From NCBI GenBank assembly GCA_020720325.1, contig DYOW01000012.1:1-40648 (forward strand): DNA of 40,648 nucleotides, in the 5' to 3' direction. This stretch comes from Desulfobulbus propionicus (GTDB taxonomy: Bacteria > Desulfobacterota > Dissulfuribacteria > Dissulfuribacterales > DYOW01). Under the pieces are notes generated by a model that did no database searches, was not told the origin of the DNA, and worked only from the letters and a program-made list of their open reading frames with translations. The position numbers and the translations under genes were made by a program. Shown here in pieces: positions 12,237-20,560 of the stretch; position 1 is the first letter of the stretch; every line of letters starts with the position of its first letter.

Positions 12237-12962
12237 TTATATTTTGTTATATAACCAGTTCGGCAGTATCTTCAAAATGGTAGCAATTATAGCCCACCTT
12301 TTGGTCACATATCCTATGTCTTTTTTTCTATCAATAATGTCAAAAATCTGTTTTGCTGCCTTTTCCTTTGTTGAAACCCAGAACAGACCCTCACCCTTTG
12401 CCATGTCCGTGTCAACAAAACCCGGTCTTATATCTGTTACAAAAATTGGCTTTCCTGATTTTTTTGCCTTTTGCCGTAATCCTTCAAGATAATTTATCTG
12501 ATAAGCCTTAGAAGCGCTATAAGCAGGCGCCATGCTGCTTCCCCTTAATCCCCCAATGGATGTGACAGCAATTAAATGTCCGTGTCCCTGCTTTTCAAAG
12601 AAATTATAAGCCCATGTAACAATTTCAGTAAATGCCGCAACATTTAAATCATTTGTTTTTTTCTCAGTGTCATAATCAAGATTTTTGTTTAAATCACCAG
12701 TTCCCGCACTCACAACCAGCAAATCAAGACCGCCTAATTCCCCTGTTAATTCATTAAGTTTTTGGGCGCTGCATCCGGTTGCGCAGTCAAATGAACTAAC
12801 AAAAAAATTTTCTGGGCTAATATTTTTTAGTTCATCAAGAAGGTGTTTTCTTCTTCCCGTTATGCCGACTTTATAATTTTTTAATGCAAAAATTTTCGCA
12901 AGTTCCCTTCCAATGCCTGATGAAGCGCCGATTATGATTGATTTTTTTACAGGTTTTTGAAA
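12237..12962 (-). CDS. SDR family oxidoreductase (start codon unclear; the ORF track's 12722 ATG is internal)
   Basis: In-frame upstream translation gives 'FQKPVKKSIIIGASSGIGRELAKIFALKNYKVGITGRRKH', the SDR GxxxGIG motif; 'AYSASKAYQINYLEGL' is the YxxxK catalytic motif. Confidence 0.85.
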   Translation of the reverse strand, partial: FQKPVKKSIIIGASSGIGRELAKIFALKNYKVGITGRRKHLLDELKNISPENFFVSSFDCATGCSAQKLNELTGELGGLDLLVVSAGTGDLNKNLDYDTEKKTNDLNVAAFTEIVTWAYNFFEKQGHGHLIAVTSIGGLRGSSMAPAYSASKAYQINYLEGLRQKAKKSGKPIFVTDIRPGFVDTDMAKGEGLFWVSTKEKAAKQIFDIIDRKKDIGYVTKRWAIIATILKILPNWLYNKI

Positions 12963-16043: not shown

Positions 16044-17486
16044 TTATATCACTGAAACCTTAAGGGCATTTGTTGTGCCAGAGACATAAAGCGGAAGACC
16101 AACAACCACAAGCACTCTGTCGCCGGAAACAAGTTTTCCGAATTGTTTTACTAGCTCTATTGCTTCTTTTTCCATTTCATCCTCATTTGCAGCCTTTCCG
16201 CTAACAAGGACAGGGTGTACCCCCCAGTTTAATGATAGATTTCTGAAGGTGTTCATTTCAGGTGTAAGTCCGTATATACTTTGGGAAGGTCTGTATTTTG
16301 AAATAAGCCTTGCGGTGCTTCCTGACTGGGTATAGGCAATGATTGCCTTGACTTCAAGCCTGTTTGCAATTTCGCAGGCAGTGGCAGCAACAGCCTCCTG
16401 TATGGAATAATGGTCATCATGCATATACCTTGCAGAGAAGGTCTTGTATGGAAAAAGTGATTCTGCATACGAAATGCTTTTTGACATGGTTTCAACCGCA
16501 AGAAAAGGAAATTTTCCAATGGCAGTCTCTTCAGAGAGCATAAGAGCGTCACTTCCGTCAAGAACAGCATTGGCAATATCTGTTACCTCTGACCTTGAGG
16601 GGAGGGGATTATCAACCATTGATCTAAGCATCTGGGTGGCGGTTATAACGGGTTTTCCGTTATTGTTTGCCTTTTGAATAAGACTTTTCTGAACAATTGG
16701 GACTTTCTCAATGGGAATATCAACTCCAAGGTCTCCCCTTGCGATCATTATGCCGCTTGTGTTTGCTATTATTGCATCAATCTCGTCTAATGCCTCATGT
16801 TTCTCAATTTTTGCAATAATCGGGATATTTCCACTGAAATTTTCTATTATTTCCTTTGCCTGTAAGATATCGTTAAGGTTTCTTACAAAAGATAATGCGA
16901 TATAATCCACATTGTTTTCAATGCCAAAACTTATATCATTGATGTCTTTTTTGGACAAAATTGGAATATTCATGGATTTATCAGGAAGATTTATTCCTTT
17001 ATGGGAATTTAAAAAACCTCCGATAATCACACGGCAATGCACATCATGACCGTTTACTTCTTCTACGGACATTTTGATTGTGCCGTCTGCAAGGAGGAGT
17101 TTATCACCTGGCTTTACATCTGAAACAAGTCCTTTATAAGTCAGGGAAACCTCTTTGTTATTTCCTGCAATATCTCTGGAGGTTAAAATAAATATCTGAT
17201 TGGATTCAAGATAAACAGGTCCGTCCTGAATCAGCCCCACCCTTACCTTTGGTCCTGAAATATCCTGTAAAATTGCAGTGGGACAACAAAGTTCTCTGGA
17301 TATTTCTCTTATTATATTTATTACTTTGCCGTGTTCTTCGTGTGTTCCGTGGGAAAAATTTAATCTGGCAACGTTCATGCCAGAGGCAATAAGTTCATAA
17401 ATTGCCTCCGGAGAATTTGTATTTGGGCCAATGGTGCAAATAATTTTGGTTTTTCTCTGGTTAATAGGGGGTGTAATTGATGTCAG
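16044..17486 (-). CDS. pyk: Pyruvate kinase (ORF extended upstream to an apparent CTG start)
   Basis: In-frame extension 'LTSITPPINQRKTKIICTIGPNTNSPEAIYELIASGMNVARLNFSHGTHEEH'; 'ATQMLRSMVDNPLPSRSEVTDIANAVLDGSDALMLSEETAIGKFP'; Shine-Dalgarno AAGGAGG 8 nt upstream of CTG at 17486-17484. Confidence 0.93.
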   Translation of the reverse strand: MTSITPPINQRKTKIICTIGPNTNSPEAIYELIASGMNVARLNFSHGTHEEHGKVINIIREISRELCCPTAILQDISGPKVRVGLIQDGPVYLESNQIFILTSRDIAGNNKEVSLTYKGLVSDVKPGDKLLLADGTIKMSVEEVNGHDVHCRVIIGGFLNSHKGINLPDKSMNIPILSKKDINDISFGIENNVDYIALSFVRNLNDILQAKEIIENFSGNIPIIAKIEKHEALDEIDAIIANTSGIMIARGDLGVDIPIEKVPIVQKSLIQKANNNGKPVITATQMLRSMVDNPLPSRSEVTDIANAVLDGSDALMLSEETAIGKFPFLAVETMSKSISYAESLFPYKTFSARYMHDDHYSIQEAVAATACEIANRLEVKAIIAYTQSGSTARLISKYRPSQSIYGLTPEMNTFRNLSLNWGVHPVLVSGKAANEDEMEKEAIELVKQFGKLVSGDRVLVVVGLPLYVSGTTNALKVSVI

Positions 17487-17500
17487 CGCCGTATCCTCCT

Positions 17501-18904
17501 TTATTCCATAAAGTTTCTTAGTTTATCTTTGCGGCTGGAATGTCTAAGCCTGTTTAAGGCCTTTTTTTCAATCTGTCTTATCCTTTCACGGGATACATTA
17601 AACCTTTTTCCAATTTCTTCAAGTGTAAACTGACATTGTTCACCGATCCCGAATCTTAAACGGATAATTTTTTCTTCCCGTGGGGACAGGGTGGAGAGAA
17701 TGCTTTTGATACGATTATTTAATTCCTTTTCCTTGACAGATTCATATGGGGAAACTGACTCGGAATTTGCAATAAAATCCCCAAGTGTGCTGTCTTCATC
17801 GCCTACCGGTGTTTCAAGGGATACAGGCTCACGGGATGCCTCAAGTATGGAGAGAATTTTATCCATTGGAAGGCCTGTTCTGTCTGATAGTTCATGGGGT
17901 GTAGGCTCTCTTCCAAGTTCTTTTGAAAGCGCATAGAATGCCTTGAAAAACTGGCTCCTAAGCTCAAGAAAATGGACGGGAAGTCTGATCGTCCTGGTTT
18001 TGTCAAGAATAGCCCTTGTGATAGCCTGTCTTATCCACCAGCTTGCATAAGTTGAAAATTTATTTCCCTTTGTATAGTCAAACCTGAAAACAGCTCTCAT
18101 AAGACCAAGATTTCCTTCCTGGATGAGATCCGCAAGGGAAAGACCCTGATGCATATATCTTTTTGCTATGCTTACAACAAGTCTCAGGTTGGCATTTATC
18201 ATCTCATCCTTTGCTCGTTCAATCTTGTTTCTTTCTTCTTTTACAATGCTGAATAAATCAAGAATAGCCGGATCATGAGTGTATTTTTCATGCAAAAGAC
18301 ACACGTTCTGAAACATTATATTAAGTTGTTGTTTTTTGGGTTTAAGGGTAGGGTCTCTTTTTTCCCAGATAGTTATTTGCTCCCGCATCTCAAGAATTTC
18401 TTTAAAATTTGAAGAACAATTGATAATTTTATCGAGAATAATCTTAAAGCCATTTCTGATAATAAAACTTAGATATTCTTCCTTTTCAGAGGTCAGAAGG
18501 TCATATTTGCCCATTTCTTTAAGATAAGATGTGGTTATTTCTTCTGTTTCTACCTGGTCTTCGGTTTCATCATCAAAAAGTTCGGCGTTAGCGGGCAATT
18601 CTTCTTCAGTGGCTTCATCAAAGGATAATTCAATGTTTTCTTCGCCTATTTTTCTCGTTTCTAAGTCGCTGGTTTCAAGGTAAGTATTGTTGGAAGCGCC
18701 ATTTCTAAAAAGATTATTTTCATCATAATCCCTTTCAAAACCTTCATTGTCTTCAGCTTTATCAGGTTTTCTTATTTTATCAATAAACTCTATAAAGGTG
18801 GGAAAAGATGTACTGTCAGGAAGAATATGTCCTTCAAAGATATTAAATGCTTCTTCTTTTTTTGGTCTTCCTTTTTTTACAACTTTTTTAATCTTCATTG
18901 TCAC
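17501..18904 (-). CDS. RNA polymerase sigma-70 factor, RpoD/SigA-like
   Basis: Regions 2-4: 'NLRLVVSIAKRYMHQGLSLADLIQEGNLGLMRAVFRFDYTKGNKFSTYASWWIRQAITRAI', 'FTLEEIGKRFNVSRERIRQIEKKALNRLRH'. Confidence 0.95.
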   Translation of the reverse strand: MTMKIKKVVKKGRPKKEEAFNIFEGHILPDSTSFPTFIEFIDKIRKPDKAEDNEGFERDYDENNLFRNGASNNTYLETSDLETRKIGEENIELSFDEATEEELPANAELFDDETEDQVETEEITTSYLKEMGKYDLLTSEKEEYLSFIIRNGFKIILDKIINCSSNFKEILEMREQITIWEKRDPTLKPKKQQLNIMFQNVCLLHEKYTHDPAILDLFSIVKEERNKIERAKDEMINANLRLVVSIAKRYMHQGLSLADLIQEGNLGLMRAVFRFDYTKGNKFSTYASWWIRQAITRAILDKTRTIRLPVHFLELRSQFFKAFYALSKELGREPTPHELSDRTGLPMDKILSILEASREPVSLETPVGDEDSTLGDFIANSESVSPYESVKEKELNNRIKSILSTLSPREEKIIRLRFGIGEQCQFTLEEIGKRFNVSRERIRQIEKKALNRLRHSSRKDKLRNFME

Positions 18905-19016: not shown

Positions 19017-19730
19017 TTAAGATTTTTGTACATAAAAATCTGATACTATGATCCCTGTTTCGTATAAAAAATAAAATGGAACTGCCATTAACAGGAGATT
19101 TAAAATATCCGGAGTGGGTGTTAACATTGCGGATACAATCATTATCAGAAGAAAGGCAATTTTTCTGTTTTTTTTTAGAAATTTCACATTAATAATACCA
19201 GTATAAGATAAGAATAAAATTAAAATCGGCAATTGGAAAATTATGCCAAAAATCAACCCGAGAAAAAGGGTAAAATCAATGAATCTGGTGACTGATATCG
19301 CTGGCTGAAGCGCTTCATTCTGGAAGGCAAGTAGAAATTTTATACCAAAAGGCAGTGTGACAGAAAGGCAGAAAATTATTCCAATAAAATATAAAAATAA
19401 AGAAAGAGCTGACAGGTCTATGAAAAAAGGTGTTTTAAGCTCAAATGTCCTTGCAAACAGCATTGTTAAGGAAAATAGGATAGGCGCAAGCAAAATAATA
19501 AAAGAGAGCAGGAACGAAAGTTTCATAAGAGATGTCAATGGCTCGATAATGCCGAAAAAAACCAGTTTCTGTCCGTACAAAGCCTGCATTAACATTATTA
19601 TTTCCCGTGAAAAAAACAGAAAAAATATAAACAGAAAGGGAAATATGCATCCATAAATTATAAATCTTACCCTTAATGAGGAGAAAATTATCCCAAGCTT
19701 TTCAGAATAGTCAAAAGTTAATGTATTTAT
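19017..19730 (-). CDS. tatC: Sec-independent translocase TatC (frame extends upstream of the ORF-track ATG; likely ATA start at 19730)
   Basis: Polytopic TatC-like sequence 'FFGIIEPLTSLMKLSFLLSFIILLAPILFSLTMLFA', 'LTPTPDILNLLLMAVPFYFLYETGI'; upstream in-frame 'SSLRVRFIIYGC' resembles the TatC ELRxRL N-terminus. Confidence 0.75.
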   Translation of the reverse strand: MNTLTFDYSEKLGIIFSSLRVRFIIYGCIFPFLFIFFLFFSREIIMLMQALYGQKLVFFGIIEPLTSLMKLSFLLSFIILLAPILFSLTMLFARTFELKTPFFIDLSALSLFLYFIGIIFCLSVTLPFGIKFLLAFQNEALQPAISVTRFIDFTLFLGLIFGIIFQLPILILFLSYTGIINVKFLKKNRKIAFLLIMIVSAMLTPTPDILNLLLMAVPFYFLYETGIIVSDFYVQKS

Positions 19731-20560
19731 TGTTTTCCCCTAAGAAAATCTATGGCATTTCGGAAAAATATCAAACCCATTCCTTCTCCTGAATAATTTT
19801 CTTTCCGTGTCCAGTTTGGATGATTAACTCCACTCCAAAAGGCCTCGGGATGAGGCATTAACCCCATTATTCTACCTGTCGGATCACAGATGCCCGCAAT
19901 TGAATTTGTTGACCCATTAGGATTCTCAGGATAGACCATGCTTTCCATTCCAGTTTCTTTGTTTGCATATCTTAAAACAATAAGGTTCTCATCTTCAAGG
20001 CGTTTTAGAATCTGTTCGTTAAGGGTGACAAATTTGCCCTCGCCATGCCTTATTGGAAGTTCTATATAGTCCATATTTCGTGTAAAAATACAATTGCTTT
20101 TTGCATTAATCCTGCAATACACCCATCTGTCCTCAAAACGACCCGAATCATTTTGTGTAAGACTCACTGTCCTTTCAGTGTATTTGCCGTCAAAACCCGG
20201 TAAAAGTCCAAGCTTTACCAGAAGCTGAAAGCCGTTGCAAATACCAAGGATTATGCCATTGTTTTTTATGACATCAATAAACTGGTCTATTAATTTCTCA
20301 CCCGTTGATAATATTTTGGACATTTTGATCCTGTGGGCGCACATCTGAGCAGCCCCAAGATTGTCTCCATCAAGAAATCCTCCGGGCAAATTTATAAAGT
20401 TGTAATCCTTAATGCTTACATCCCCGTGGAGGACATCGCTCAGATGTGCTATGTCAACAACATCTGCCCCTGCAAGCTTACATGCCTGAGCCATTTCATT
20501 TTCACAATTTATTCCGTAACCTGAGATTACTATTGCCTTAACTTTGTTTTGGTTTATCAT
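19727..20560 (-). CDS. purQ: Phosphoribosylformylglycinamidine synthase, glutaminase subunit
   Basis: 'VISGYGINCENEMAQACKLAGADVV', 'LPGGFLDGDNLGAA', 'ILGICNGFQLLVKLGLLPG', 'GLMPHPEAFW'. Confidence 0.95.
   Translation of the reverse strand: MINQNKVKAIVISGYGINCENEMAQACKLAGADVVDIAHLSDVLHGDVSIKDYNFINLPGGFLDGDNLGAAQMCAHRIKMSKILSTGEKLIDQFIDVIKNNGIILGICNGFQLLVKLGLLPGFDGKYTERTVSLTQNDSGRFEDRWVYCRINAKSNCIFTRNMDYIELPIRHGEGKFVTLNEQILKRLEDENLIVLRYANKETGMESMVYPENPNGSTNSIAGICDPTGRIMGLMPHPEAFWSGVNHPNWTRKENYSGEGMGLIFFRNAIDFLRGKQ

Follow-up and report, generated by a model that had tools for sequence, protein, structure and literature searches.

The purQ-tatC Locus

The window, meaning the whole stretch of 40,648 nucleotides analysed here, comes from an uncultured Desulfobacterota bacterium known through a metagenome assembly (MAG) of 204 contigs. 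On its minus strand, purQ is followed by a tatC paralogue that lacks a standard start codon ahead of its conserved coding region. The features involved are the following:

19727..20560, minus strand: purQ, the gene upstream of tatC (PF13507, 291.8 bits); the purQ-tatC order is kept in relatives
19017..19730, minus strand: tatC, the purQ-linked paralogue; intact frame of 237 codons from ATA to a TAA stop
19742-19740, minus strand: in-frame TAG that closes the tatC frame upstream
19737..19741, minus strand: Shine-Dalgarno (SD) sequence AGGGG inside the purQ 3' end (-6.4 kcal/mol with the anti-SD, 6 nt before the ATA)
19733..19739, minus strand: G GGA AAA heptamer in the purQ frame, a possible -1 slippery site
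19728..19730, minus strand: AUA, the proposed tatC start codon
19727..19730, minus strand: ATAA, in which the proposed tatC start and the purQ TAA stop share four bases (-4 overlap)
19593..19595, minus strand: ATG, the first standard tatC start, at residue 46; its use would delete the LRxR motif and the first transmembrane helix (TM1)

After the TAG, the tatC frame reads GGG AAA ACA ATA (19730-19728) AAT ACA TTA on the minus strand, and no ATG, GTG or TTG occurs between that stop and the conserved coding region; the first one in frame is ATG 19595, residue numbers being counted from the ATA. The encoded protein matches the Pfam profile PF00902 with 112 bits (cut-off 25.1), its residues 17-218 covering profile positions 4-208, and it is a divergent paralogue, because its score against the NCBIfam equivalog falls below the cut-off (94.5 versus 132.7). 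Two more tatC genes are present in the genome, both with ATG starts. The LRxR-like segment, at residues 19-22, lies together with TM1 upstream of ATG 19595, so that the N-terminal hallmarks of the family are obtained only if translation starts before that codon. A preliminary description of this DNA had given ATA 19730, ATG 19595, the AGGGG 6 nt before the ATA, the ATAA overlap and an in-frame TAG bound, all of which hold on re-reading the sequence, and its view that about 45 codons with an ELRxRL-like segment and TM1 are encoded upstream of ATG 19595 agrees with the orthologue alignment.

tatC in Relatives

A set of 29 tatC orthologues was assembled from the same order, nearly all of them directly downstream of purQ, and the purQ-tatC paralogue is retained in nearly all relatives examined. 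An in-frame ATG, GTG or TTG precedes the conserved region in 28 of the 29, the remaining one being cut by a contig end, and for this reason the lack of a standard start in the present tatC is taken to be real. The LRxR motif and TM1 are kept in every aligned orthologue that is not cut by a contig end. The position of the standard start varies from -29 to over +100 nt relative to the purQ stop, and some relatives (L016, L032) have only about 10 residues before the LR. None of these starts lies at the ATAA overlap; a conserved ATG at that place, which the preliminary description had regarded as the mark of a sequencing error, is thus not what the relatives display. Because relatives at the order level use ATG, GTG or TTG, the AUA of tatC looks lineage-specific.

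Closer relatives were sought by scanning genome contigs with TatC, and none were found; the corresponding scan with PurQ gave a best match of 59%, in a Desulfobulbales MAG. PurQ (19727-20560, minus strand) carries 10 lone substitutions, at columns that are otherwise invariant, as compared to 0-3 in other genomes, while TatC carries 5 such lone substitutions and IF3, encoded on another contig, only 1. Since, for all three genes, this genome has a lower overall identity to its relatives than any other, a long branch would be the simplest reading of the lone substitutions in PurQ and TatC, with rapid change as the other candidate for PurQ. Mis-binning of the contig was considered and rejected, as the window has a GC content of 0.358 against a sample mean of 0.357 and, of 49 tetranucleotide profiles compared, its own lies nearest the mean.

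AUA 19730 as the Probable tatC Start

Each in-frame codon from the TAG to mid-TM1 was scored by pairing its 16 upstream bases with the anti-SD. Among the near-cognate codons ahead of the conserved N-terminal segment, only ATA 19730 has an SD at a working distance; the pairing available to ATA 19691 and ATT 19688 abuts the codon, with a spacing of only 0-1, and ATA 19661 comes after the conserved LRVR. A start at ATA 19730 would put 19 residues before the conserved arginine, an N-terminal length like that of the orthologues (about 10 to over 40). An SD as good and as well placed is found at 6% of internal in-frame ATA codons versus 21% of ordinary starts, and as a single piece of evidence the SD is only moderately significant.

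The overlap with purQ arises from the end of that gene, CAA TAA (stop 19729-19727), which has ATAA in common with ATA 19730-19728. In the genome sample, an in-frame ATAA overlap is observed in 6 cases among about 356 co-directional gene pairs, alongside 19 canonical -4 overlaps; apart from pyk, the other ATAA cases have a standard start no more than about 12 codons away. Taken alone, the overlap is weak evidence for the tatC start. It is the orthologue alignment, the strength and spacing of the SD, and the use of AUA by the genome's own infC that together make AUA 19730 the best-supported reading, and it is likely to be the start of tatC.

infC and Precedents for AUA Initiation

The start region of infC, the IF3 gene, is AGGAGG-TGTGTT-ATA-ACC in this assembly, with a spacing of 6 nt and without a standard start nearby:

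L254:2008-2010 (G000:C101), minus strand: infC AUA start behind AGGAGG

Throughout the order, all 22 infC starts that were read are AUC or AUA, none with an ATG, GTG or TTG close by, and the SD is nearly always G-rich. AUC accounts for 17 and AUA for 5, this genome included; the AUC count contains L247, where the automated reading gave an upstream ATT and inspection places ATC at the aligned site that follows GGGAGGTGT. The IF3 sequence is intact in this genome.

IF3 limits its own synthesis via the non-canonical start of infC, which is AUU in E. coli. The tatC start proposed here would resemble that case in being of the AUA/AUC class that IF3 discriminates against, and the host's own infC start is AUA; however, infC is an autoregulatory case of a translation factor, whereas no reason is known why tatC should be under IF3 control. 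Initiation from all 64 codons is reportedly the subject of a 2017 study by Hecht et al. The AUU start of E. coli pcnB was reportedly described by Binns and Masters in 2002 (cited in PMC13009471); the codon differs from the AUA of tatC and, to our knowledge, pcnB overlaps no other gene, whereas tatC overlaps purQ. As in the present reading of tatC, the inefficient start of pcnB keeps the expression of one chromosomal gene low.

In S. aureus, AUA starts have been documented for infC, ccpN and citZ, with retapamulin-arrested ribosomes on the AUA of infC and ccpN, and reporters, also for citZ, in which output is reduced by the non-canonical codon (PMC13009471). These genes share with tatC an AUA preceded by an SD, and infC is common to both organisms; the S. 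aureus starts were demonstrated by Ribo-Ret and/or reporters, whereas that of tatC is proposed from sequence. Several of the S. aureus sites depend on extended SD motifs, and an ATAA overlap is not reported for them, in contrast to the 5-base SD and purQ overlap of tatC. Given the infC precedent in the same cell and the experiments elsewhere, an AUA start is possible in this organism; with AUA starts already documented in S. aureus, that of tatC is of a known sort, though unusual.

The Neighbouring Genes pyk and SDR

The preliminary description had pointed out that, together with tatC, two further genes within about 7 kb lack standard starts, namely pyk (CTG) and a gene of the SDR family, and the frames bear this out for all three:

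16044..17486, minus strand: pyk (PF00224/PF02887) with a candidate CTG start at 17486-17484; no ATG, GTG or TTG until codon 37, counted from the CTG
17495..17500, minus strand: pyk SD AGGAGG (-11.6 kcal/mol, 8 nt before the CTG)
12237..12962, minus strand: SDR-family gene, intact (PF00106, 98.6 bits), without a recognisable start or SD

The open frame of pyk (16047-17522, minus strand) contains no standard start before codon 48, and the expected N-terminus follows CTG 17486. An SD of -11.6 kcal/mol is matched at less than 1% of internal ATA positions, and in 29 pyk orthologues an ATG or GTG falls within this same span of a few codons. An in-frame ATA that forms an ATAA overlap occurs here as well, at 17504, but has no useful SD. 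On these grounds the case for the CTG start of pyk appears equally as strong as that for tatC. The SDR frame (12240-12962, minus strand) shows no ATG, GTG or TTG for 80 codons and no start of any other recognised kind; its GTA 12950-12948 stands where two distant relatives have ATG, and the missing start is left unexplained.

The tatC and pyk genes lie 2.2 kb apart. Among 61,358 reconstructed AUG starts, a switch from AUG to AUA has not been reported and one to CUG was reported twice (PMC5622118), which makes the proximity of two such genes odd.

A Model for tatC Translation

The absent standard start, the conserved coding upstream of ATG 19595, the SD with the overlap, and the AUA of infC fit a model that we hold to be fairly probable, in which AUA 19730-19728, placed by its SD, starts a TatC of 237 residues whose translation is coupled to purQ and kept at a low level by IF3. 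Initiation with fMet would take place on this AUA, positioned by the AGGGG within purQ, and ribosomes that end purQ would probably re-initiate at the overlap, because the tatC start shares ATAA with the purQ stop. As at infC, IF3 would be expected to keep initiation on AUA weak, and the outcome would be a low TatC output, coupled to purQ translation and reduced by IF3.

It has been shown that -4 overlaps with an internal SD support termination-reinitiation in bacteria (PMC6728339), and that in E. coli an excess of IF3 reduces initiation at non-canonical codons as well as re-initiation where an SD is lacking (PMC2268962). In the ATGA/UGAUG overlaps of -4 and -1 (PMC6728339), as at ATAA 19730-19727, stop and start share four bases and the SD lies in the upstream gene; the described overlaps nevertheless begin with a standard start, whereas purQ-tatC has an ATA with a TAA stop. 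A stronger version, which we regard as rather doubtful, is that AUAA is a genuine termination-reinitiation signal and that a ribosome which has just terminated at the purQ stop takes AUA as a start efficiently, tatC output being tied to purQ translation and to the IF3 level. The codon would then be accepted because it is already presented to that ribosome, and coupling would offset the discrimination by IF3.

Alternative Explanations

An error of the MAG consensus, or a base from a minor strain, with ATG present in the organism itself, is improbable in our judgement. The ATA is one base away from ATG in a 204-contig assembly, the relatives have standard tatC starts, and pyk and SDR also lack starts in the same 7 kb with almost no such genes elsewhere in the sample. 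Against this, the genes of the window are otherwise intact, which makes a high local error rate unlikely, the strongest SD, that of pyk, sits exactly before the CTG, and independent errors at two or three start codons would be very unlikely.

It is quite improbable that a recent mutation removed the start and left this tatC, one of three paralogues, silent or barely expressed. The two further ATG-started copies in the genome and the weakness of AUA starts (PMC13009471) would allow for such a loss, but the 237-codon frame is fully intact, the SD is retained, and the paralogue has been kept next to purQ across nearly all of the relatives.

Very unlikely, too, is a tatC start at another codon, be it ATA 19691 or ATT 19688, which would give a short N-terminus, or ATG 19595, which would leave five TM helices. 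The short N-termini of L016 and L032 and the weak SD of ATG 19595 (-4.3) speak for these codons; the first two, however, suffer from the cramped anti-SD spacing described above, and the third would remove the LRxR motif and TM1 that all complete orthologues keep. Finally, -1 frameshifting at G GGA AAA near the purQ end, giving a PurQ-TatC fusion, is scarcely credible: the heptamer does fall just where it would have to, after the TAG of the -1 frame and before the purQ stop, but X_XXY_YYZ heptamers occur at 1.6% of codons, or about a 6% chance over four codons, and none of the relatives has a fusion, tatC starting separately in them.

The assignment of tatC to AUA 19730 bears on gene annotation, since callers that accept only ATG, GTG or TTG would shorten TatC by 45 residues, with the loss of a membrane helix, and pyk by 36. 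Outside infC, few AUA or CUG starts have good support. An AUA in a -4 overlap would offer a direct test of whether termination-reinitiation relaxes the choice of start codon, for which the order-wide AUC/AUA start of infC provides a clean, conserved internal control. The tatC case is in this sense of moderate interest, both for annotation and as a test case.

Start Codon Use and Genetic Code in the Genome

Start codon use was surveyed in two ways: by composition, in about 895 kb with 633 genes whose 5' ends are closed (some stretches being masked), and by orthology against 800 kb of one complete relative, with 284 pairs of which 207 could be evaluated. Of these 207 pairs, genuine absence of a standard start is confined to pyk and infC. 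Both surveys together otherwise returned SDR (composition survey only), a prfB-like programmed frameshift (L062) and a few gene fragments. tatC was missed by both, owing to its hydrophobic composition in one and to an orthologue outside the sampled part in the other, and therefore the surveys undercount. Of the preliminary proposal that tatC begins at the AUA of an ATAA overlap, the start assignment itself stands as the best supported, by alignment, SD and infC; the hint of start selection relaxed across the genome finds no support in these counts.

A variant code in which AUA means Met was rejected: AUA is frequent inside genes, where its use comes close to that of AUU, and there is a strong match to PF01171 (TilS-type, lysidine-synthetase-type ATPase family) at G000:C12, so that internal AUA is read as an ordinary Ile codon. 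An initiator tRNA with a GGG/CCC anticodon stem was looked for across the assembly and none was found; as the two recovered tRNA-CAT genes look like elongator/Ile2 types, the fMet tRNA gene probably lies in the unassembled part of the genome.

Two minor observations concern other loci. The prfB-like gene at L062:1838-2878 (minus strand) has CCTTGA ahead of GGIFD, which is probably the programmed +1 frameshift typical of release factor 2. At L039:8251-8820 (minus strand), an ORF resembling the C-terminal part of a histidine kinase follows directly after a TGA, with conserved coding, and is likely a frameshifted or broken gene.
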